DNA from: Frigoribacterium endophyticum
GTDB lineage: Bacteria; Actinomycetota; Actinomycetes; Actinomycetales; Microbacteriaceae
Assembly (NCBI RefSeq): GCF_011759585.1
Contig: NZ_JAAOYV010000001.1
Span: forward strand, 806,001 to 870,000
Direction: 5' to 3'
Length of the DNA: 64,000 bases
The first letter of the stretch is position 1. Each line of letters opens with the position of its first letter. The notes under the pieces were generated by a model. The model had not been told where the DNA came from and ran no database searches. It saw nothing but the letters and a program-made list of their open reading frames with translations. Positions 24,660-53,520 of this stretch are shown here, piece after piece. The translations under genes were made by a program, and so were the position numbers.

Positions 24660-26012
24660 ATGACCCGCGCCGCGCCTCCCTCGTCCGGACGCGCCGACAC
24701 GGGGAGCGTGCCCCTCCCGACCGGGTCGGCGGTGTCCGCGGCCCCGACTGCCCTCGCGGCCTCAGACCGGGGTGCCATGAGCACCGCGCGCCGGGTCACC
24801 GCCTCGCCCGTGCTGCTCGGCGTCGCCGTCGTGCTCGTGCACCTCTGGCTCGGGCACGCGGCGCTGACCGGCCCGAACCAGCCGATGGGCGACGTGCTCA
24901 GCGTCTACTCGACGTGGATGCAGCGCGGCGTCGGCGCGGGGGACTGGGTCGGCATCGACCGGCCGTGGGTGTACCCGCTGCTGGCCGCCGTGCCCATGCT
25001 GCTGGCCCGCGTGGCCGGCCCTGAGCACTACGGAACGGCATGGCTCACGATCGTCCTGCTGCTCGACGCGGCCGCGCTCGCCGTCCTGACCCGCGGCGGC
25101 CGCCGCGAGCTCGCCGCGGCGTGGTGGTGGCTGGCCTTCCTCGTCGTGCTGGGGCCCATCGCCGTGGGGCGCATCGACGCCGTCACGGTCGCCCTCGCCC
25201 TGGTCGGCCTCCTGCTGCTCACCGCGCGCCCCACGCTGGCCGCCGCCCTGCTCACGGTCGCCGCCTGGGTCAAGGTCTGGCCGGCGGCCCTCGTCGTCGC
25301 CGCGCTGATCGCGGTGCGTCGGCGCCGCGACGTGCTCACCGCGGCGGTGACGACGAGCGTCGTCGTCGTCGCGATCTCGCTCGTGCTCGGCAGCGGCGCG
25401 ACCGTGCTCGGCTTCGTCGGGCAGCAGGCGGGCAGGGGCCTCCAGGTCGAGTCGCTCACCGCGGTGCCGTGGCTCTGGCGGGCGGCCTCCGGAGCCGCCG
25501 ACACGAGCGTCTACTACGACCGCGAGATCCTGACCTTCCAGGTCTCCGGCCCCGGCGTCGCGCTCGCCGCCCAGGCGACGACCGTCGTCATGGCGCTGGT
25601 CGTGCTCGCCGTGGTGCTGCTGGGGCTGCGGGCCGTGCGCTCCGGGGCGTCGGCCGTGCGCCTCCTCGCGCCCCTCTCGCTCGGGCTGGTCACGGCCCTG
25701 ATCGTCACCAACAAGGTGGGCTCGCCGCAGTTCGTCTCGTGGCTGGCCGTGCCCGTCGTGGTCGGCCTCGTGCTGCAGCGCCGGGGCGGGCCCTCGTTCG
25801 TCGTGCCCGCGGCGCTGAGCCTCGTCGTCGCGGGCCTGACCCAGGTCATCTACCCGTGGTGCTACGACTCCCTCCTCGCCGCCGAGCCCTGGATGGTGCT
25901 CCTGGCCACGGTGCGCGGGCTCGGCGAGGTGGCCCTGCTCGCGCTCGCCGGGGCCCAGCTGTGGCGGCTCGGCAGGACGGCGACGGCAGGGCGGGGCAGG
26001 ATGGGCGCATGA
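24660..26012 (+). CDS. GT87/DUF2029-like membrane mannosyltransferase
   Basis: 450-residue protein with about ten hydrophobic segments and the pattern of GT-C polyprenol-phosphate-mannose-dependent transferases (DUF2029/GT87): an early extracellular loop with MGDVLSVYSTWM and a RPWVYPLLA motif, then GRIDAVTVALALVGLLLL and AAWVKVWPAALVV, which resembles the conserved K-x-W/P region of the family. The acceptor is probably an envelope lipid or glycan. The leaderless promoter fixes the ATG; the first 45 residues are low-complexity and precede helix 1. The stop overlaps the next gene as ATGA. Confidence 0.75.
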   Translation: MTRAAPPSSGRADTGSVPLPTGSAVSAAPTALAASDRGAMSTARRVTASPVLLGVAVVLVHLWLGHAALTGPNQPMGDVLSVYSTWMQRGVGAGDWVGIDRPWVYPLLAAVPMLLARVAGPEHYGTAWLTIVLLLDAAALAVLTRGGRRELAAAWWWLAFLVVLGPIAVGRIDAVTVALALVGLLLLTARPTLAAALLTVAAWVKVWPAALVVAALIAVRRRRDVLTAAVTTSVVVVAISLVLGSGATVLGFVGQQAGRGLQVESLTAVPWLWRAASGAADTSVYYDREILTFQVSGPGVALAAQATTVVMALVVLAVVLLGLRAVRSGASAVRLLAPLSLGLVTALIVTNKVGSPQFVSWLAVPVVVGLVLQRRGGPSFVVPAALSLVVAGLTQVIYPWCYDSLLAAEPWMVLLATVRGLGEVALLALAGAQLWRLGRTATAGRGRMGA

Positions 26013-26341
26013 TCGTCGCCTTCTCCGTCTCGCCCAGCGGCGGTGCCCCCGCCGGCCACCTCGACCCGGAGGCGCACGGCGACTCCGTCCACGACGCCGT
26101 CGCCGCGGCCGTGGCGGTCGTCCGGGCGTCGGGCCTGCCGAACCGCACCTCCTCGATGTTCACCGAGATCGAGGGCGACTGGGACGAGGTCATGGCCGTC
26201 GTCAAGGAGGCCACGGAGGCGGTGGGCCGCTTCGGCACCCGCGTCTCGCTCGTGCTCAAGGCCGACATCCGCCCCGGCCGCACCGGCGAGCTGACCGGCA
26301 AGGTCGAGCGCCTCGAGGCCGCCCTCGGCGAGCAGGGCTGA
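26009..26341 (+). CDS. MTH1187-type thiamine-binding protein
   Basis: 110-residue ferredoxin-like-fold protein of the MTH1187/YkoF group, some of which bind thiamine. Family features: IVAFSVSPSG at the N-terminus, SGLPNRTSSMFTEIEGDWDEVMAVVKEATEAV and RVSLVLKADIRPGRTG. Translationally coupled to the mannosyltransferase gene (ATGA), though no functional link is obvious. It is not fused to a transporter, so ligand binding is an inference from family only. Confidence 0.85.
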   Translation: MIVAFSVSPSGGAPAGHLDPEAHGDSVHDAVAAAVAVVRASGLPNRTSSMFTEIEGDWDEVMAVVKEATEAVGRFGTRVSLVLKADIRPGRTGELTGKVERLEAALGEQG

Positions 26342-26346
26342 CCGTC

Positions 26347-26661
26347 GTGCTGTTGACCGTCGTCGGGGCCCTGTTGCTCGTGCCCGGCCTCTTGGCCTAC
26401 ACCGGGGCCTGGCGGCGATGGTCGGACCCCACCGTGCTGCACTGGCCGTTCGGGCTGGCGTGGGCCGGGGTCGGCCTCGCGCTGGTGGACGCAGGCGCCC
26501 TCCTCTGGTCGACGTCGGCGCCCGTCGCCGACGTCGTGCAGCAGGTCGGCCTGGCCGTCTGCGTGCTCGGCATCGTCTTCGCCTTCTGGCTGCCGCAGTT
26601 CCTCCTGCCGCGCTGGTACCGCGACGCGAAGTCCGGCGGCGGCCGCCGCGCCACGCGCTAG
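26347..26661 (+). CDS. Small membrane protein, unknown
   Basis: 104 residues with three predicted membrane helices (about 2-18, 32-52, 64-88) and a basic C-terminal tail (RWYRDAKSGGGRRATR). GTG start 5 nt after the preceding stop, so it belongs to the same three-gene unit. No family recognised. The helix arrangement and basic tail suggest the C-terminus faces the cytoplasm. Confidence 0.75.
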   Translation: MLLTVVGALLLVPGLLAYTGAWRRWSDPTVLHWPFGLAWAGVGLALVDAGALLWSTSAPVADVVQQVGLAVCVLGIVFAFWLPQFLLPRWYRDAKSGGGRRATR

Positions 26662-26694
26662 GCGACCCGGGCTCGCGGCGACGGCGCCGTCGGC

Positions 26695-26700
26695 TATCGT
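26695..26700 (+). promoter_or_regulatory. -10 element of the T7SS-like module
   Basis: TATCGT; RNA would start near 26707, giving a leader of about 66 nt that ends in a GAGGGGG ribosome-binding site before GTG 26773. Confidence 0.4.
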
Positions 26701-26772
26701 GGGGCAGACAGGACGTTCCTGCCCCGGCCCCGGTGGGGGCGCCGGGGCGTGACGACGACGAGGGGGCTCGAC

Positions 26773-27078
26773 GTGGACGGATGGAAGATCGACATGCCCG
26801 CGGCGCGCGACGCCGTGTCGCAGGCCGGGGCGCAGCTCGACGGCTTCGACGACGTGGCCAGCGCGATCTCGACGGCGATCGACGACGCCCAGGGGGCGAC
26901 GCTGGGCAAGACCGCCGCCGCCGTCGCCGACATGGCGCACAACCCCTTCCTCATGCAGCTCACGCTGGCCCGCTCGATGGCTGCGTCGAGCATCCAGAAG
27001 ACCGGCGCGGCACTCGACGCGTACGAGGCGGGCGACCAGGAGATGGCGCTCGAGAACTCGCGGGGAGCAGGACGATGA
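26773..27078 (+). CDS. Small WXG100-like partner protein (putative)
   Basis: 101 residues, mostly helical, no signal peptide. It begins MDGWKIDMPAARDAVSQAG and has a central AHNPFLMQLTLARSMAASSIQKTGAALDAYEAGD stretch, the pattern of the small helical-hairpin proteins (WXG100/ESAT-6 relatives, DUF6507-like) encoded before type VII secretion substrates in actinobacteria. A GAGGGGG site lies 7 nt before the GTG; an upstream frame start at 26749 is less likely. The stop overlaps the next gene as ATGA, which fits heterodimer formation with its product. The family assignment is by pattern only. Confidence 0.6.
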   Translation: MDGWKIDMPAARDAVSQAGAQLDGFDDVASAISTAIDDAQGATLGKTAAAVADMAHNPFLMQLTLARSMAASSIQKTGAALDAYEAGDQEMALENSRGAGR

Positions 27079-28262
27079 GCGGCGAGGAGCTCGCGGTGCT
27101 GCCGAACGCCGCCGCGGTCGAGGCCGCGGCGGGGGCCTTCGCCGACATCGGCCCGGCCGCCGACTCCGCGATGGCCGGCCTCACGTCCGCCTGGTCGCGC
27201 CTCGCCGCGCCCGGCGTCTACCAGTCGCCCGAGTCGGCCCCGGTGCTCGCGGCCATGGACGAGCCGAGCACCGTCGCGGGCACGCTCGGCGACGACGCCG
27301 CCGCGGCGAAGACGGCTCTCGAGACCTACGCGACGACGCTCGCCGGCCTCGAGGCGCGCCGTCGGCAGCTCGTCGACGACCTGGCCGACCGCGACGCGGC
27401 CCTGGCCGCGCAGGCCGCCGACCCCACCTCGCCCCCCGACCCCTCCACGAGCGGCCAGGCGGCCCTGGGGCTCGCCACGCGCATCACCCAGTTCAACCGC
27501 GACGCCGAGCAGGCCGACCAGGACTGCGCCGACGCCCTCGTGCGGCTCGTGCGGTACTCGTCGAAGCAGGTCGCCGACTTCGTCGACGCCGCGAACGACG
27601 TCGTGGGCCATCCGGTGCTCGGGCTCGGCGTGAGCATCGCCGACCAGTGGGACGAGGTCAAGGACGTCTTCCAGGGAGAGGCGCAGCGCTGGGGGTTCTT
27701 CACCACCGACGGCGACCATCGCGGTCCCTTCGCCGCGACGAACGAGCACGGCCAGGTCGTCCGGCCCGTTCCCCCCGTCGACGACGCGCGGCCACCGGGT
27801 GCGAGGGCGACCGGCGGCGGCGCCGGGGCCGGTGCCGCCGCGACCGGGGCGACGGACGACGTGGGCCGAGGCCGCGTCGCCGGCCCCTCCGCGGTGTCCG
27901 AGGCGGGCCGGCTGGGCGGGCGGGCGCTCGGCGTGGCCGGGGCCGCGCTGACGATCGGCACGTCGTTCACCGACCAGTACCGTCGCGACCAGGCGGCCCA
28001 CCCCGAGTGGGACGAAGGGCAGCGTCGCAAGAGCGCCGCGACGACCGCGGCGTTCCAGGGCGGCGGCTCGGCCGCCGGGGCCTGGGCCGGCGCGGCCGTC
28101 GGCGCCCAGTGGGGCGCGACGATCGGCACGATGATCTTCCCCGGCGCGGGCACCATCATCGGCGGCCTGGCGGGCGGCATCATCGGAGGCGTGATCGGCG
28201 GCGGCATCGGGCAGAAGATGGGCGAGGGCCTGCAGGACCTCGTCGGCGACCTGTTCGGATGA
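27075..28262 (+). CDS. LXG-like protein with glycine-zipper C-terminus, putative T7SS substrate
   Basis: 395 residues. Residues 1-200 are long alpha helices with an early LTSAWSRLAAPGVY turn (WXG-like) and no signal peptide, resembling the LXG domain of type VII secretion toxins. A Gly/Ala/Pro linker (about 230-270) leads to a C-terminal segment of small-residue repeats (GGSAAGAWAGAAVGAQWGA, then IIGGLAGGIIGGVIGGGIG), a glycine zipper of the kind found in membrane-inserting toxins and channel formers. No enzymatic toxin motif is visible, so the likely activity is membrane insertion. Coupled to a small WXG-like gene upstream. No ESX ATPase gene lies in the window. Confidence 0.6.
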   Translation: MSGEELAVLPNAAAVEAAAGAFADIGPAADSAMAGLTSAWSRLAAPGVYQSPESAPVLAAMDEPSTVAGTLGDDAAAAKTALETYATTLAGLEARRRQLVDDLADRDAALAAQAADPTSPPDPSTSGQAALGLATRITQFNRDAEQADQDCADALVRLVRYSSKQVADFVDAANDVVGHPVLGLGVSIADQWDEVKDVFQGEAQRWGFFTTDGDHRGPFAATNEHGQVVRPVPPVDDARPPGARATGGGAGAGAAATGATDDVGRGRVAGPSAVSEAGRLGGRALGVAGAALTIGTSFTDQYRRDQAAHPEWDEGQRRKSAATTAAFQGGGSAAGAWAGAAVGAQWGATIGTMIFPGAGTIIGGLAGGIIGGVIGGGIGQKMGEGLQDLVGDLFG

Positions 28263-28362
28263 CCGGCCCCCAGACCACGGGCCTGCGAGGCGGAGGTTCG
28301 CCGCCGCCGCCGTCCGCCCCGAGACGACGACCAGGGCCACCACGACACGAGACGAGAGCACT

Positions 28363-28815
28363 GTGAGCAACGGCTGGCGCACGAGACGGGACGGCCCCGT
28401 GCAGATCCAGGTGCCCGAGGAGTGGGCGGACCTCGACGAGGGCACCGGGCCCCTGGTCATGGCCGAGCCCGAGCGGCTCGACGGCGGGTTCCGCGCCAAC
28501 GTCGTGGTGCTGCACCGGGCGAGCGAGCAGCCCGTCCACGAGGCGGGCGCCCTCGCCGTCGCGGAGGTCTTCGCGTTGCCCGCCCCGAGCCACGTCCTCT
28601 CGAACGACGTCTGGGACCTGCCGGACGGCCCGGGTCGCATGCTCGACTTCCTCTGGTGGCAGGGCGACGTGTGCGTGTCGGTGATGCGCTGGACGATCGC
28701 GACCGGTCGTCGCGTGGTCGAGGTGACCGCCAGCGTCGGCGTGCTCGACCGCACGGGGTACGAAGAACTCCTGGTCGCGATCGCGGCCCGGCTGGCTGTG
28801 GAGGACGACCGATGA
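28363..28815 (+). CDS. Mog1/DcrB (DUF1795)-like cytosolic protein
   Basis: 150 residues without signal peptide or lipobox. Motifs such as QIQVPEEWADLDEGTGPLVMAEP, FRANVVVLH and GRMLDFLWWQGDVCVSVMRWTIATGRRVVEVTASV follow the alpha/beta sandwich of Mog1/PsbP/LpqN/DcrB proteins. DUF1795 (Eag) members in Gram-negatives are chaperones that shield the transmembrane parts of type VI effectors; here the gene follows a glycine-zipper protein and is coupled (ATGA) to the next gene. A chaperone or immunity role is an inference. GTG start; 100 nt separate it from the preceding gene. Confidence 0.6.
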   Translation: MSNGWRTRRDGPVQIQVPEEWADLDEGTGPLVMAEPERLDGGFRANVVVLHRASEQPVHEAGALAVAEVFALPAPSHVLSNDVWDLPDGPGRMLDFLWWQGDVCVSVMRWTIATGRRVVEVTASVGVLDRTGYEELLVAIAARLAVEDDR

Positions 28816-29633
28816 CCGAGATCCGACTCGACGAGGACGCCACCGAGAAGGGCGGCGCCCCCGCCGAGCTGCTGACCCGCATCGCGAGCCGCCAGCCGTA
28901 CCCCGCCGGGGACGCGCTGGTCTCCGTCGCCGCGTTCGACTTCCTCTTCGCGTCCCGGGGGCGGGGCCTGCAGTCCCGTCGCCGACGGGGCACCCCGGAG
29001 GCGGGCGAGCTCGTCGAGCTCGGCTGGCTCGACGCCTTCGGAGGCCCGTCGCCGGTCGGCCAGGAGATCGTCGACCTCCGGTCCCGGGCGCCGATGTCGT
29101 TCCGCGCGACCGCGAGGGGGGCAGGCGTGACCACCACGTGGACGGCGTGGGTCGACGGTGCCCGCGCGCTCGTGCTCGCCGAGCCCCAGAACCTCGACCG
29201 GTCGGCTCCGCGCGTCGAGGAGCGGGCCACGCTGCACGTCACGTCGAACGGCTCGGCGCTGGGGCTCCTGCTCTCGTGGATGGGCGTCGGCCCGGCCTGG
29301 ACGTTCCAGCACGAGCCGGGCAAGGACCAGATCTCCCGTCGGGCCCTCGACGCGCGCGTCGACGCCCCCGTCGGGCAGGTGCCCCCGGTCGAGCCCGACC
29401 CGAGCTGGACGACGGCCCGGGCGTGGTCGGCCGGCCAGTGGACCTGGTTCGAGGTGGGCTCCGGGGTGAGCCGGTTCGGCACGACGGCCGTCCGCACGGG
29501 CGACGTGGGGTGGCTCGTGCCGCGCGACGTCGACCGGTCGACGGTGCGGCTCGACCCGACCCTCCCCGGTGACGTCTTCCGCGAGGTCGCGACCATGTGG
29601 GTCGACTCGCTGGAGGGCCGCCGACGCCGCTGA
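28812..29633 (+). CDS. Unknown protein, last gene of the T7SS-like module
   Basis: 273 residues, soluble, no signal peptide. The N-terminal 100 residues are mixed (AAFDFLFASRGRGLQ, ELGWLDAFGG), the rest strand-rich with many Trp (TTWTAWVDGARALVL, SWMGVGPAWTFQHEPGK, SAGQWTWFEVGSG). Length and position invite comparison with the EspG chaperones of ESX loci, but I cannot see a specific motif. Starts by ATGA overlap with the Mog1-like gene, so the two products probably act together, for example as chaperones or immunity factors for the glycine-zipper protein. Confidence 0.6.
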   Translation: MTEIRLDEDATEKGGAPAELLTRIASRQPYPAGDALVSVAAFDFLFASRGRGLQSRRRRGTPEAGELVELGWLDAFGGPSPVGQEIVDLRSRAPMSFRATARGAGVTTTWTAWVDGARALVLAEPQNLDRSAPRVEERATLHVTSNGSALGLLLSWMGVGPAWTFQHEPGKDQISRRALDARVDAPVGQVPPVEPDPSWTTARAWSAGQWTWFEVGSGVSRFGTTAVRTGDVGWLVPRDVDRSTVRLDPTLPGDVFREVATMWVDSLEGRRRR

Positions 29634-29718
29634 CCGCCTCGACGGGTCAGCCGTCCTCGCGACCATCGTGCTCGTCGTGTCGGGGCCCCAGGGGCTGCGC
29701 CCGCGCCTCCCCAGGGCG

Positions 29719-29752
29719 TACCATCGAGGGTCGGGTCGAATCGATTCGAACC
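29719..29752 (+). promoter_or_regulatory. Promoter with LacI-type operator before the DHA1 gene
   Basis: TACCAT (29719-29724) as -10 is followed at the predicted RNA start by a 20-bp dyad (29733-29752) whose central 14 bp, TCGAATCGATTCGA, are perfectly palindromic. AATCGATT with a central CG is the hallmark of LacI-family operators, and this position would block transcription. The regulator gene is not in the window. Confidence 0.55.
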
Positions 29753-29866
29753 GACACGGTCAGGCCGGAGGCGCGACGTCGCCTCCGCCCACGCCCCCAG
29801 CTCGCTCGACGGAGAGCCCTGGGCCCCCTCAGCCCGACACCTCCGACCCAGCGAAGGCAGCCGCCC

Positions 29867-50175: not shown

Positions 50176-52254
50176 TCAGCGACGGGCCTCCCGGCGACGC
50201 GTGACGACCAGCAGGGCGACGCCGGCCAGCAGGGCCAGCAGGGCTCCGGCGAGCGTCTCGGCCGTGTCGTCGCCCGTGTAGGCGAGGGCGGACGTCGCGG
50301 CGGCGGCCGTGGCGGTGGAGGCGCCGGTCGCCACGAGGGCCTCACGACCCGTCGCCGAGGTGGTCGCCGCGGCCGTGACACCGCCGGTGGCGGCGGTCAC
50401 GACGGCCGGGCCGACGGGCTCGTCGGTCGTGGCCGGGCTGGTGGGCAGCACCGGGGTGCCGGGGTCGACCGGGGTGGTCGGGTCCGTCGGCGTGGTGGGG
50501 TCGACGGGCGTGGTGGGGTCGACCGGGGTGGTCGGCGTCACCGGGGTGGTGGGCACGACGGGCGTGCCCCCGTCGGTGTCGCTGTCGCCGATGACGGAGA
50601 CCGCGGCGCCGCCGACGGTGATCGGCAGGCCGATCACGGGCACGACCTGGGTGCCGCCGAGGACGCCGTCGTCACCGCTGGTGACCGGGCCGGTGCCCGT
50701 GGTGGGCGTGGTGCCAGTGGTGGTGCCGGTGGTGGTGTAGGTGCTGCTGCTGTCGCCGATGAAGGAGACCGCGGCGCCGCCGACGGTGATCGGCAGGCCG
50801 ACGACGGGGGCGACCTGGGTGCCGCCGAGGACGCCGTCGTCACCGCTGGTTACCGGGCCGGTGGCGGGGGTGGTGCCGGTGCCCGTGGTGGGCGTGGTGC
50901 CGCTGGTGGTGTCGGTGGTGCTGCTGTCGCCGATGACGGAGACGGCCGTGCCGCCGACCGTCACGGGCAGGCCGACGACCGGGATGACCTGGGTGCCGCC
51001 AAGGACGCCGTCGTCGCCGCTGGTGGCGGCGCCGGTGGTGGGCGTGGTGCCGATGGTGGTGCCGTCGGCGGTGCCGATGCCGGTGGTGGTGTCGGTGCTG
51101 CTGCTGTCGCCGACGACGGAGACGGCCGTGCCGCCGACGGTGACGGGCAGACCCACGACCGGGATCACCTGGGTGCCATCGAGGACGCCGTCGTCGCCGC
51201 TGGTCGCGGCGCCGGTGGCGGGGCTGGTGCCGGTGCCCGTGCTGGGCGTGGTGCCGGTGGTGGTCCCGCTGCTGCTGCTGTCGCCGATGACGGAGACCGC
51301 GGTCCCGCCGACCGTCACGGGCAGCCCGACGACCGGGATGACCTGGGTGCCGCCGAGGACGCTCTCGTCGCCGCTCGTCGTGCTTCCTCCCGAGCCCGAG
51401 CCCGAGGCCGTGCCTGAGGCGGGCGCGGTGCCCGTCGCCGGCGTCGTGCCGGTGCCGCTGCCCGTGCCTGCGCCGGTGCTCGAGCTGTCGCCCAGCACCG
51501 AGACGGCGGTGCCGCCGACGGTCACGGGCACGTCGAGGTCGACCAGCGCCTGGGTGCCGCCGAGGACGCCGTCGTCACCGCTGGTCTCGGGGGCCGGCGA
51601 CGCCGACCCCGTCGGGCCCGAGGCGGGCGCCGTGGTCGTGCCGCTGGTGCTGCTGCTGTCGCCGAGCACCGAGACAGCGGTGCCGCCCACGGTGACCGGC
51701 AGGTCGAGGTCGACGAGCGCCTGGCTGCCGCCGCCGATCGAGTCGTCTCCACTGGTCTGTGCGGGTGCGGCTGCGGGTGCGGAGGCGGGTGCCGGGGCAG
51801 GTGCCGCCGGCACCGTCGGGGCGGTGGCCGGTGCCGCCGCGCTCGTCGCGTCGCCGACCACGGTGACGGCCGTGTCGGTCACGGTGACCGGGACGTCGAC
51901 CGACACGATGCCCTGCGTGCCCGACAGCAGCCCGGCGTCGCCGCTGGTCGTCGTGACCGGCGCGGCAGCGGGTGCGGCGGGAGCGGCCGGAGCCGGAGCC
52001 GGGGCCGCGGCAGCAGGCGCCGCAGCGGCAGGCGCGGCCGGGGCTGGGGCCGACGACGTCGCGTCGCCGACCACGCTGACGGCGGTGCCGAGGGCCGAGA
52101 CCGGGGCCTCGACCACCGCGGCGACCTGGGTGCCCGAGAGCAGCCCGTCGTCTCCGCCGGTGAGGGTGTCCGCCTGGGCGGCGGTGGTTCCGAGGGCGCA
52201 CAGGCCCCCGACGAAGAGCGCTCCGAGGAGCCCTCTCGAGACGTGCTTGTTCAT
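50176..52254 (-). CDS. Cell-wall-anchored surface protein with nine chaplin-like repeats
   Basis: 692 residues. A signal peptide ends near ALGTTAAQA (about 28). Nine units of about 35 residues follow, each of the form [11 protein letters not shown], then [12 protein letters not shown], then AVSVIGDSS, separated by Ser/Thr/Gly or Ala/Pro linkers. The pattern GVLxGtQVxxPVxVPVxVxGnxVxVIG is that of streptomycete chaplins, but the repeats lack the two cysteines. A Thr/Pro segment precedes a sorting signal: LAYTG (657-661), hydrophobic helix and Arg-rich tail, the class E sortase (SrtE) type used by long chaplins. Expected to sit on the wall and alter surface hydrophobicity. GGAGAAG lies just before the ATG. 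Confidence 0.85.
50575..52180 (-). repeat. DNA tandem repeats encoding chaplin-like units
   Basis: Coding repeats of roughly 160-190 bp, most similar over repeats 4-9 (about 50575-51600), which share long identical stretches such as the codons for VTVGG. They invite unequal recombination, so repeat number probably differs between strains and the assembly here deserves care. Confidence 0.75.
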
Positions 52255-52407
52255 GGTCTTCTCCGTACGAGTGAGGTGTGGGCGCCGCGCGGGGCGGCGA
52301 GGGGCGCGTGTGTCGCTCGGCAGGCGGTGCCTGCGGCGGCGGGTCGGCTCCTGCTCAGCAGGAGCGCCCGCGGCGTGGGCGGGAGCCCACGAGCGACGCG
52401 ACCGACC

Positions 52408-53520
52408 TCAGTCGGGGGAGCTGTCGGTGTCGTGCACGGGCGACGACGGGAGGTCGTCGTCGCCGTCGGAGGAGCCCGCCGTGATTGTCAGGGCGGGGAG
52501 CTGGGAGGCGCGGGTGGCGTCGGCCACGACGGCGCCGCCCGCGGCGCCGCCCGCGCCGGCGCCCTGCGAGCCCTGGCCCGAGCCGGAGGGCAGGGCGGGC
52601 TGGCCGTCGTCCGACGGGCCGGGGAGGGGCGCGGGAGCGGGGGAGAGGGGCAGGTCGGAGGCGCGGGTCGGGTCACCGGCGGAGGCGCGGTCGCCTGCCT
52701 GCGCCGCCACGATCGCGGCCCGGAGCGCGGTGCCCGCGTCGACCGCGACGACGTCGGCGGCCCCGGGCGACAGCGACGCCGTCGCGGCCGGGTCGCCCGC
52801 AGCGAGGCCAGCGGCCGGGGAGGCGGCGACGGGGGAACCGGTGCCGAGCAGGTCGCCCACGGTGGCGATCGCCGTCGGGCCCGCGTCGGGCGCGTCGCCG
52901 GTGCCGGCTGCGCCCGGCGTGGCGGGCAGGGCGGGCGCGGTCGGCAGGGCGGGCACGAGCGGCGCGAGCACGTCGGCGGGAGCCGGGGCGGCCGCGGCGT
53001 CGGCGACCGTGCCGACGGCCGCGTCGGCGACGGCGGCGACCGGAGCGACGACGGTCGCGACCGGGGCGGGGCCCGTGACGGCCTGCGCGACCGGGACGGC
53101 CGAAACGACGCGGTCGACGGTCTGCGCCACCGGGGCGACGACGCTGCTGACGGGGGCGGCGGCCGCGACCTGCTGCACGACCTGGGGCGCCACGGGGGCG
53201 ACGGCCTGCACGACGCGCTGCACCGGCGGCGCGACCGCGGTGACCTGGGTGGCGACCTGCGTCGCCGACGCCACCGCGCCTCCCGCCGTCTGCGCGACCG
53301 CGGCGACGGGGGCGTCGAGCGAGCCCGTCACGCTGCCGAGGGCCTGCGTCGTCCCGCCGAGCAGCGAGGGCGACGACGCGGTGTCGGCGGAGGCCGAGCG
53401 CGGCGCGAGGGCGAGCGCGAGGACGACGAAGGCCAGCGCGAGGAGGCCGGAGAGGACCAGGAGGCGCACGAGCGAGAGCGCGGCGGGTCGCCGCGTCGTC
53501 GTCTCGGCCGTCTGATCCAC
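52408..53520 (-). CDS. Low-complexity Ala/Val/Pro exported protein, unknown
   Basis: 370 residues. A basic N-terminus and one hydrophobic helix (about 17-40, ending ALAPRSASA) form a signal peptide or anchor. The mature part is almost all Ala, Val, Pro, Thr and Ser with irregular repeats (VAPVAQTVDRVV, VAPPVQRVVQAVAPVAPQVVQQV) that could form amphipathic helices, then an acidic tail (DGDDDLPSSPVHDTDSSPD). No domain recognised and no sorting motif. GAAGG lies 9 nt before GTG 53520. It precedes the chaplin-like gene by 153 bp on the same strand and may be its partner. Confidence 0.7.
   Translation of the reverse strand: MDQTAETTTRRPAALSLVRLLVLSGLLALAFVVLALALAPRSASADTASSPSLLGGTTQALGSVTGSLDAPVAAVAQTAGGAVASATQVATQVTAVAPPVQRVVQAVAPVAPQVVQQVAAAAPVSSVVAPVAQTVDRVVSAVPVAQAVTGPAPVATVVAPVAAVADAAVGTVADAAAAPAPADVLAPLVPALPTAPALPATPGAAGTGDAPDAGPTAIATVGDLLGTGSPVAASPAAGLAAGDPAATASLSPGAADVVAVDAGTALRAAIVAAQAGDRASAGDPTRASDLPLSPAPAPLPGPSDDGQPALPSGSGQGSQGAGAGGAAGGAVVADATRASQLPALTITAGSSDGDDDLPSSPVHDTDSSPD

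Follow-up and report, generated by a model that had tools for sequence, protein, structure and literature searches.

The window analyzed here is a stretch of 64,000 nucleotides from Frigoribacterium endophyticum (C1:806001-870000 within a genome of 3.32 Mb), and our subject is a run of five of its genes, here called M, g1, g2, g3, and g4 (Table 1). An earlier reading of the letters alone (the original prediction) had described g1 to g4 as a four-gene module, coupled in pairs, that resembled an orphan substrate locus of a type VII secretion system (T7SS). The four genes and their pairing were confirmed; we take the coupling to be real because within each pair (g1/g2 and g3/g4) the two genes share 4 bp (ATGA). 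In each of the four genes, the GC content of the third codon position lies at 0.92-0.96, which is the pattern of coding sequence. Alternative starts exist for g1 (an upstream GTG at 26749) and for g3 (at 28399). A fifth gene, M, belongs to the same unit. M matches no Pfam family above that family's cut-off. Profiles from which the window's own rows had been left out recover M (E 4.5e-18), g1 (6.8e-11), g2 (3.9e-40), g3 (2.4e-29), and g4 (4.4e-26), and for each profile its own target is the sole significant match among the 61 genes called in the window.

Table 1. Features of the M-g1-g2-g3-g4 cassette, in coordinates of the window
Feature	Position	Strand	Description
M	26347-26661	+	104 amino acids, three predicted transmembrane helices; candidate membrane immunity protein
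g1	26773-27078	+	101 amino acids, GTG start; DUF6507 small helical partner
g2	27075-28262	+	395 amino acids; predicted effector with helical rod N-terminus, linker, and glycine-zipper C-terminus
g2 helical part (residues 12-177)	27108-27605	+	long helices (model and shared N-terminus)
g2 glycine zipper (residues ~325-383)	28047-28223	+	GxxxG count; model confidence low here
g3	28363-28815	+	150 amino acids; Mog1/PsbP fold, like type VI secretion Eag chaperones
g4	28812-29633	+	273 amino acids; EspG-like fold
Cassette M-g1-g2-g3-g4	26342-29688	.	stretch that the 15 sister genomes lack at this site

The boundaries of the unit can be read from related genomes. A gene of 110 amino acids upstream of M (26009-26341) is present in all 16 genomes of the genus, including the one studied here, and the DNA downstream of it was read in the 15 others, where none of the five cassette genes is found. 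The MFS gene (Pfam MFS_1) that forms the right flank directly follows the 110-residue gene in six of them (L153, L154, L159, L161, L164, and L166), and in the remaining sister genomes other genes or small open reading frames lie between the flanks. When 26342-29866 was compared with the 15 sister stretches by blastn, the five genes were absent, and the match, seen in five of the stretches, was limited to the final 64-185 bp ahead of the MFS gene; the left flank was matched in 15/15 and the MFS gene in 13/15. The two stretches without a match to the MFS gene (L156:3-3032 and L160:2-4462) carry RHS-repeat proteins with DUF6531 at this position, as far as the fetched stretch reaches. M-g1-g2-g3-g4 therefore behaves like a single insertion, at a place where RHS proteins can be found as well. 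With RHS proteins sitting where the cassette sits, the site may be an effector hotspot. Searched genome-wide, the 15 sister genomes gave no match to g3, and their matches to g2 were confined to its N-terminus.

The original prediction had called g1 WXG-like. The Pfam family that g1 matches is DUF6507 (PF20117; 33.8 bits, cut-off 25), which is also matched at E<=0.05 by all 11 aligned members of the g1 type, window included. The likeness to WXG100 stands at the level of weak profile resemblance (hhalign, 75%, E 2.5e-5), but g1 has no Pfam WXG100 match and no WxG in its sequence. Close to its C-terminus lies a YxxxD motif (YEAGD), which by eye is present in six of the 11 aligned relatives, window included.

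Similarly, g2 is LXG-like in architecture but not in family: it matches no Pfam family at E<=1 and no NCBIfam family either, and LXG (PF04740) is not among the six weak families listed for seven members of the g2 family (A2). As in LXG effectors, a helical N-terminus is common to proteins with varied C-terminal toxin domains, and a gene for a small helical partner adjoins. In the structural model of g2, residues 12-177 mostly have pLDDT values of 66-95, dropping to about 40-50 at the end of this part; a fold search with the model gave nothing at E<=0.001 and only long helical proteins from E 0.1. The glycine zipper predicted at the end of g2 is borne out by counting. Residues 271-395 contain 17 GxxxG motifs against a mean of 7.3 in shuffled sequences, and none of 20,000 shuffles reaches 17. 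Gly-zipper_Omp is matched weakly by 3/7 members of A2 (best E 0.0011). No enzymatic toxin domain was found in g2, as originally noted, and a membrane-active C-terminus is the best reading of this part.

A search with g2 as a single protein gave matches in 10/149 genomes, own genome included. In sister genomes and more distant ones, its N-terminus is shared by long proteins, and each of these has a DUF6507-like protein as its neighbor (11 loci); since these loci were reached via the N-terminus of g2 itself, their likeness to g2 is partly a matter of selection. Six of the long proteins were scanned, and L035 ends in TNT, L037 in a CdiA-CT RNase A domain, and L034, from the same genome as the window, in Abhydrolase_8, while L036, L038, and L042 matched no family. 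Polymorphic toxins partnered by DUF6507 proteins have N-termini related to that of g2. The own-genome copy (L034:7047-9163, C2:436-438 kb) is a second pair of DUF6507 and g2-like genes, in which a small putative lipoprotein follows the Abhydrolase_8 C-terminus.

These relatives bear on whether g2 is a toxin at all. The cassette could export a non-toxic surface or membrane-associated protein, with g3/g4 as its chaperone and M as a membrane anchor or export helper; some copies in Micrococcaceae keep a constant position next to groES/groEL or to a gene for a methyltransferase, which is unlike a fast-changing weapon. We nevertheless regard such a role as quite unlikely, given that relatives sharing the N-terminus carry toxin domains, that RHS proteins take the same site in sister genomes, and that the zipper effectors TelE (PMC10434224) and EsxX (PMC12744356) are described in those papers as toxic.

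The original prediction had g3 as a Mog1/DcrB-like protein and looked for immunity among genes three and four. A profile (A1) was made from seven g3-g4 fusions with no window rows. Its first part matches the window's g3 (E 2.6e-23) and its second part the window's g4 (E 2.8e-39), and therefore g3 and g4 are halves of one protein family, often a single fused protein in relatives. When a fused relative was modeled, the structure matched chaperones of the Eag and EspG types, with a Mog1/PsbP/DcrB-like fold in the g3 half, as had been suggested, and an EspG-like fold in the g4 half. Sequence adds a weak match of g3 to EagT6 (E 0.002); at the column of EagT6 Q102, the only one inspected of the S37, S41, Q58, and Q102 columns, Q is found in 6/13 sequences and R in the window. 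No Pfam or NCBIfam family covers g3 or g4, and no Pfam family is reached at E<=1 by g3 or by the seven fused relatives. At the sequence level, neither g4 nor the fused relatives matched PF14011 or the EspG chains in the PDB. Three candidate matches were set aside: one partial Pfam EspG match in the genome, below the cut-off and away from g4; the single chance-level match (E 1.8) obtained when the PDB was searched with the whole fused profile; and, from the g3 search, the GH3 enzyme 8xrt (E 0.00028), which covers less than half of the profile and was judged a chance match.

The same module is found elsewhere. Searches with single proteins found g3 in 3/149 genomes and g4 in 9/297 (own included). 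At E<=0.001, profile A1 matched in 44/396 genomes of the order and 9/396 of the phylum, own included, many of these matches being weak and to g3 only. Genus g86 supplies 21 of the 44 genomes, with weak matches to g3 only; eight of these 21 were read (unread rows include G286, G253, G364, and G777); in the phylum set, two of the eight other genomes were read (L123 and L152). Outside the own genome, the order-level search gave 24 loci in 14 genomes at E<=1e-9, all of which were read. Inspected by eye, 17 of these loci have a zipper-type g2 as neighbor, 17 have M, and 16 have both; with scripted rules, after removal of false positives, the zipper is beside 15/24 and M beside 15/24. Both counts are given because the rules made errors in either direction, with false positives (a 950-residue gene in L113, and M labels on the 222-residue genes of L116 and L117 and the 86-residue gene of L110) and misses (the zipper in L111 and L142, M in L112 and L141). 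Applied to 228 control genes, the zipper rule picks out five and the M rule one, g2 and M themselves counted. Gene calls in the fetched loci came from a simple script, so that their starts are approximate. Weak g4 or g3 matches in G250 (L064), G190 (L065), and G093 (L066) were dropped before counting, as no module was seen when their neighborhoods were read.

In a scan of GTDB genomes (profile A5), 14 loci were found in Zhihengliuella, Arthrobacter, other Micrococcaceae, Nocardioides, and a metagenome-assembled genome labeled Acidobacteria; four of them (L126, L130, L134, and L135) are probably from genomes already seen in the earlier searches. Here g2, M, and g3/g4 occur together in 13/14 loci (the exception is L138), and g3 and g4 are fused in 10/14. 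The search for the same gene order that the original prediction had proposed thus finds g2, M, and g3/g4 together in Arthrobacter, Zhihengliuella, and Nocardioides, and in the neighborhoods of several genomes g1, g2, M, and a g3-g4 fusion stand together.

Several copies vary in composition. In L033:6676-9223, g2 seems to have decayed to its zipper part; after it come a g3-g4 fusion that looks intact and M. L114:5963-7601 has M, g3, and g4 without g1 and g2, and may represent either a remnant or an immunity set on its own. Beside modules in L112:7564-8628, L063:7877-8941, and L111:4652-5512, M-like membrane segments are fused to extra soluble domains. Within the window itself (50176-53520), two secreted-looking proteins of 692 and 370 amino acids on the minus strand also pass the scripted zipper rule; they look different from g2.

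As to secretion, the word orphan fits the position of the locus, as no T7SS gene lies inside the window, but does not fit the genome, whose WXG100, YukD, and FtsK/SpoIIIE matches all fall outside the window. T7SS genes, whose absence from the genome would by its own terms have refuted the original prediction, occur at two places on C2. At one (C2:1288-1297 kb), an FtsK/EccC-like gene is accompanied by EccD with YukD, by an FHA protein, and by two WXG100-like proteins that score below the cut-off. The second T7SS-like locus (L030:6647-14845, C2:831-839 kb) has an FtsK/EccC-like protein of 1469 amino acids, a clear WXG100, two unknown soluble proteins, and a T7SS_signal-like protein near the cut-off (26.5 vs 27 bits). 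EccB was not found in the genome, and the two own-genome T7SS loci (L029 and L030) contain no g3 or g4 relatives; a 213-residue protein of L030, considered as a relative of g3, was dropped on that ground.

In other genomes, T7SS genes lie close to relatives of the cassette. Two relatives of the g2 N-terminus (L036 and L042) adjoin EccC/EccD-like and WXG100-like genes, and in all eight sampled genomes of genus g86 (L121, L122, and L145-L150) a g3 relative sits inside a T7SS locus, with an EccC-like and a WXG100-like gene on one side and further small WXG100-like genes on the other. One of these small proteins was scanned and scored 22.1 bits against a cut-off of 27.3. In L121:5002-7648, L122, and L150, identical or near-identical pairs of small WXG100-like genes are repeated. 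If the genes were unrelated to type VII secretion, with g1-g2 as a cytoplasmic or membrane scaffold, the lack of T7SS genes in the window would be accounted for. This seems to us very improbable in view of the DUF6507 assignment of g1 with its YxxxD, the T7SS genes next to the L036 and L042 relatives, and those of this genome.

Taken together, we read the five genes as a mobile T7SS effector cassette consisting of a membrane-active effector, a two-part chaperone/neutralizer, and a membrane immunity protein, with a probability of roughly 0.6. The roles are assigned because the cassette offers a counterpart for each role in the EsxX-ExiAB-ExiCD system described below and because g3/g4 go with the zipper type, as judged from the 11 DUF6507 loci of other kinds, in none of which a g3 or g4 relative was found. 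According to this proposal, a T7SS encoded at another place in the genome would recognize an export signal that g1 probably forms together with the helical N-terminus of g2. The zipper C-terminus of g2 would enter the membrane of a competing cell and probably depolarize it. Before export, g3 and g4 would work as one chaperone/neutralizer, its Eag-like half cradling the zipper helices in the cytoplasm and its EspG-like half holding the g1-g2 rod and presenting it to the secretion machine. M, in the membrane, would shield the producer from toxin coming from outside. What the data show are the genes, their recurrence, the limits of the cassette at this site, the zipper, and the predicted folds; binding, export, toxicity, and immunity are inferred. 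The original prediction of a type VII substrate accompanied by a small partner is supported, but g3/g4, as halves of one family, would not divide into chaperone plus immunity, and M, which lay outside the original module, is the best immunity candidate.

Four observations weigh against this proposal: the low model confidence over the g2 zipper; the derivation of the EspG link of g4 from structure alone; the other roles of Mog1-like folds, which include the type VI immunity proteins TplEi and Tsi3; and the 7/24 loci without g2 (L113, L114, L115, L118, L119, L120, and L125, of which L114 keeps M). The last two also favor an alternative in which g3, g4, and M are all immunity proteins, cytoplasmic and membrane, none of them aiding export, and g2 is a toxin targeted via g1 alone; the lack of g3/g4 in the 11 other DUF6507 loci fits this as well. 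We consider such an arrangement unlikely, since the two halves match Eag and EspG, both of them secretion chaperones, and since the g3 relatives in the eight g86 genomes lie between EccC-like and WXG100-like genes with no toxin apparent by eye.

The effector-cassette reading can be carried one step further, to the tentative suggestion, for which we put the odds slightly below even, that Actinomycetota built a dedicated T7SS chaperone by joining folds from two secretion systems, an Eag-like one, which shields the transmembrane helices of type VI effectors, and an EspG-like one, which in ESX systems binds the exported helical heterodimer. The joint protein would keep a depolarizing zipper effector soluble and harmless and see it delivered, while M would give immunity from outside. 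If true, zipper-type membrane-damaging T7SS effectors, described in the papers used here for Staphylococcus and Streptococcus, would extend to Actinomycetota with different partners, and one fold would serve both type VI and type VII systems in handling, in the cytoplasm, effectors that insert into membranes. With g3 and g4 naturally fused, it becomes testable how a T7SS keeps membrane-active cargo soluble and safe before export. We found no open-access paper on DUF6507, and none combining any three of EspG, EagR, Eag chaperone, Mog1, and type VII secretion.

Several known systems resemble the cassette in part. Eag chaperones, as described in PMC7773334, grip the transmembrane helices of effectors. 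Compared with EagT6 and SciW as presented there and in PMC12881460, g3 lacks a Pfam match and occurs in a T7SS setting, the zipper of g2 is C-terminal, in place of the N-terminal prePAAR helices of the Eag systems, and the polar contact Q102 is not kept in the window. EspG occurs in most T7SSa systems, and EspG-like folds are reported by structure in other T7SS types (from the account in PMC11217815); against the ESX EspG chaperones treated there, g4 stands apart by the missing sequence matches given above and by its frequent fusion to g3. PDB entry 3lyd, an uncharacterized protein of Jonesia denitrificans, is among the closest known, and its title assigns no function. The C-terminal-zipper effectors of TelE-TipE of Streptococcus gallolyticus (PMC10434224) and TspA-TsaI of S. 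aureus (PMC7456083; PMC12744356) resemble g2 as predicted here, being T7SS effectors that harm or depolarize membranes. These systems differ in their N-termini and immunity families, and the parts of those papers used here report no pair like g3/g4.

A close parallel is EsxX of S. aureus, an LXG protein with a glycine zipper. According to PMC12744356, the soluble ExiAB keep this zipper sequestered while it is in the cytoplasm, and protection from outside comes from ExiCD, a pair of membrane proteins. Like EsxX with LapX3/X4, ExiAB, and ExiCD, the cassette has a helical partner with a C-terminal aromatic-xxx-D motif, a rod N-terminus, and a glycine-zipper C-terminus, together with a pair of soluble partners and a linked polytopic membrane protein; M is linked and polytopic, and its protective role is what we infer. 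Unlike EsxX, g2 is without Pfam LXG and its host belongs to the Actinomycetota. Unlike ExiAB, g3 and g4 model as Mog1/PsbP and EspG-like folds and are not reported as GyrI-like, there being no GyrI-like (DUF5085) fold among the matches listed for their models; and unlike ExiCD, with its two six-helix proteins in that paper, there is one small M. Because it shows none of the Pfam matches that mark the LXG, WXG100, Eag, and EspG families, we do not place the cassette in any of them. By analogy, it would work like EsxX-ExiAB-ExiCD, but apparently with different parts.

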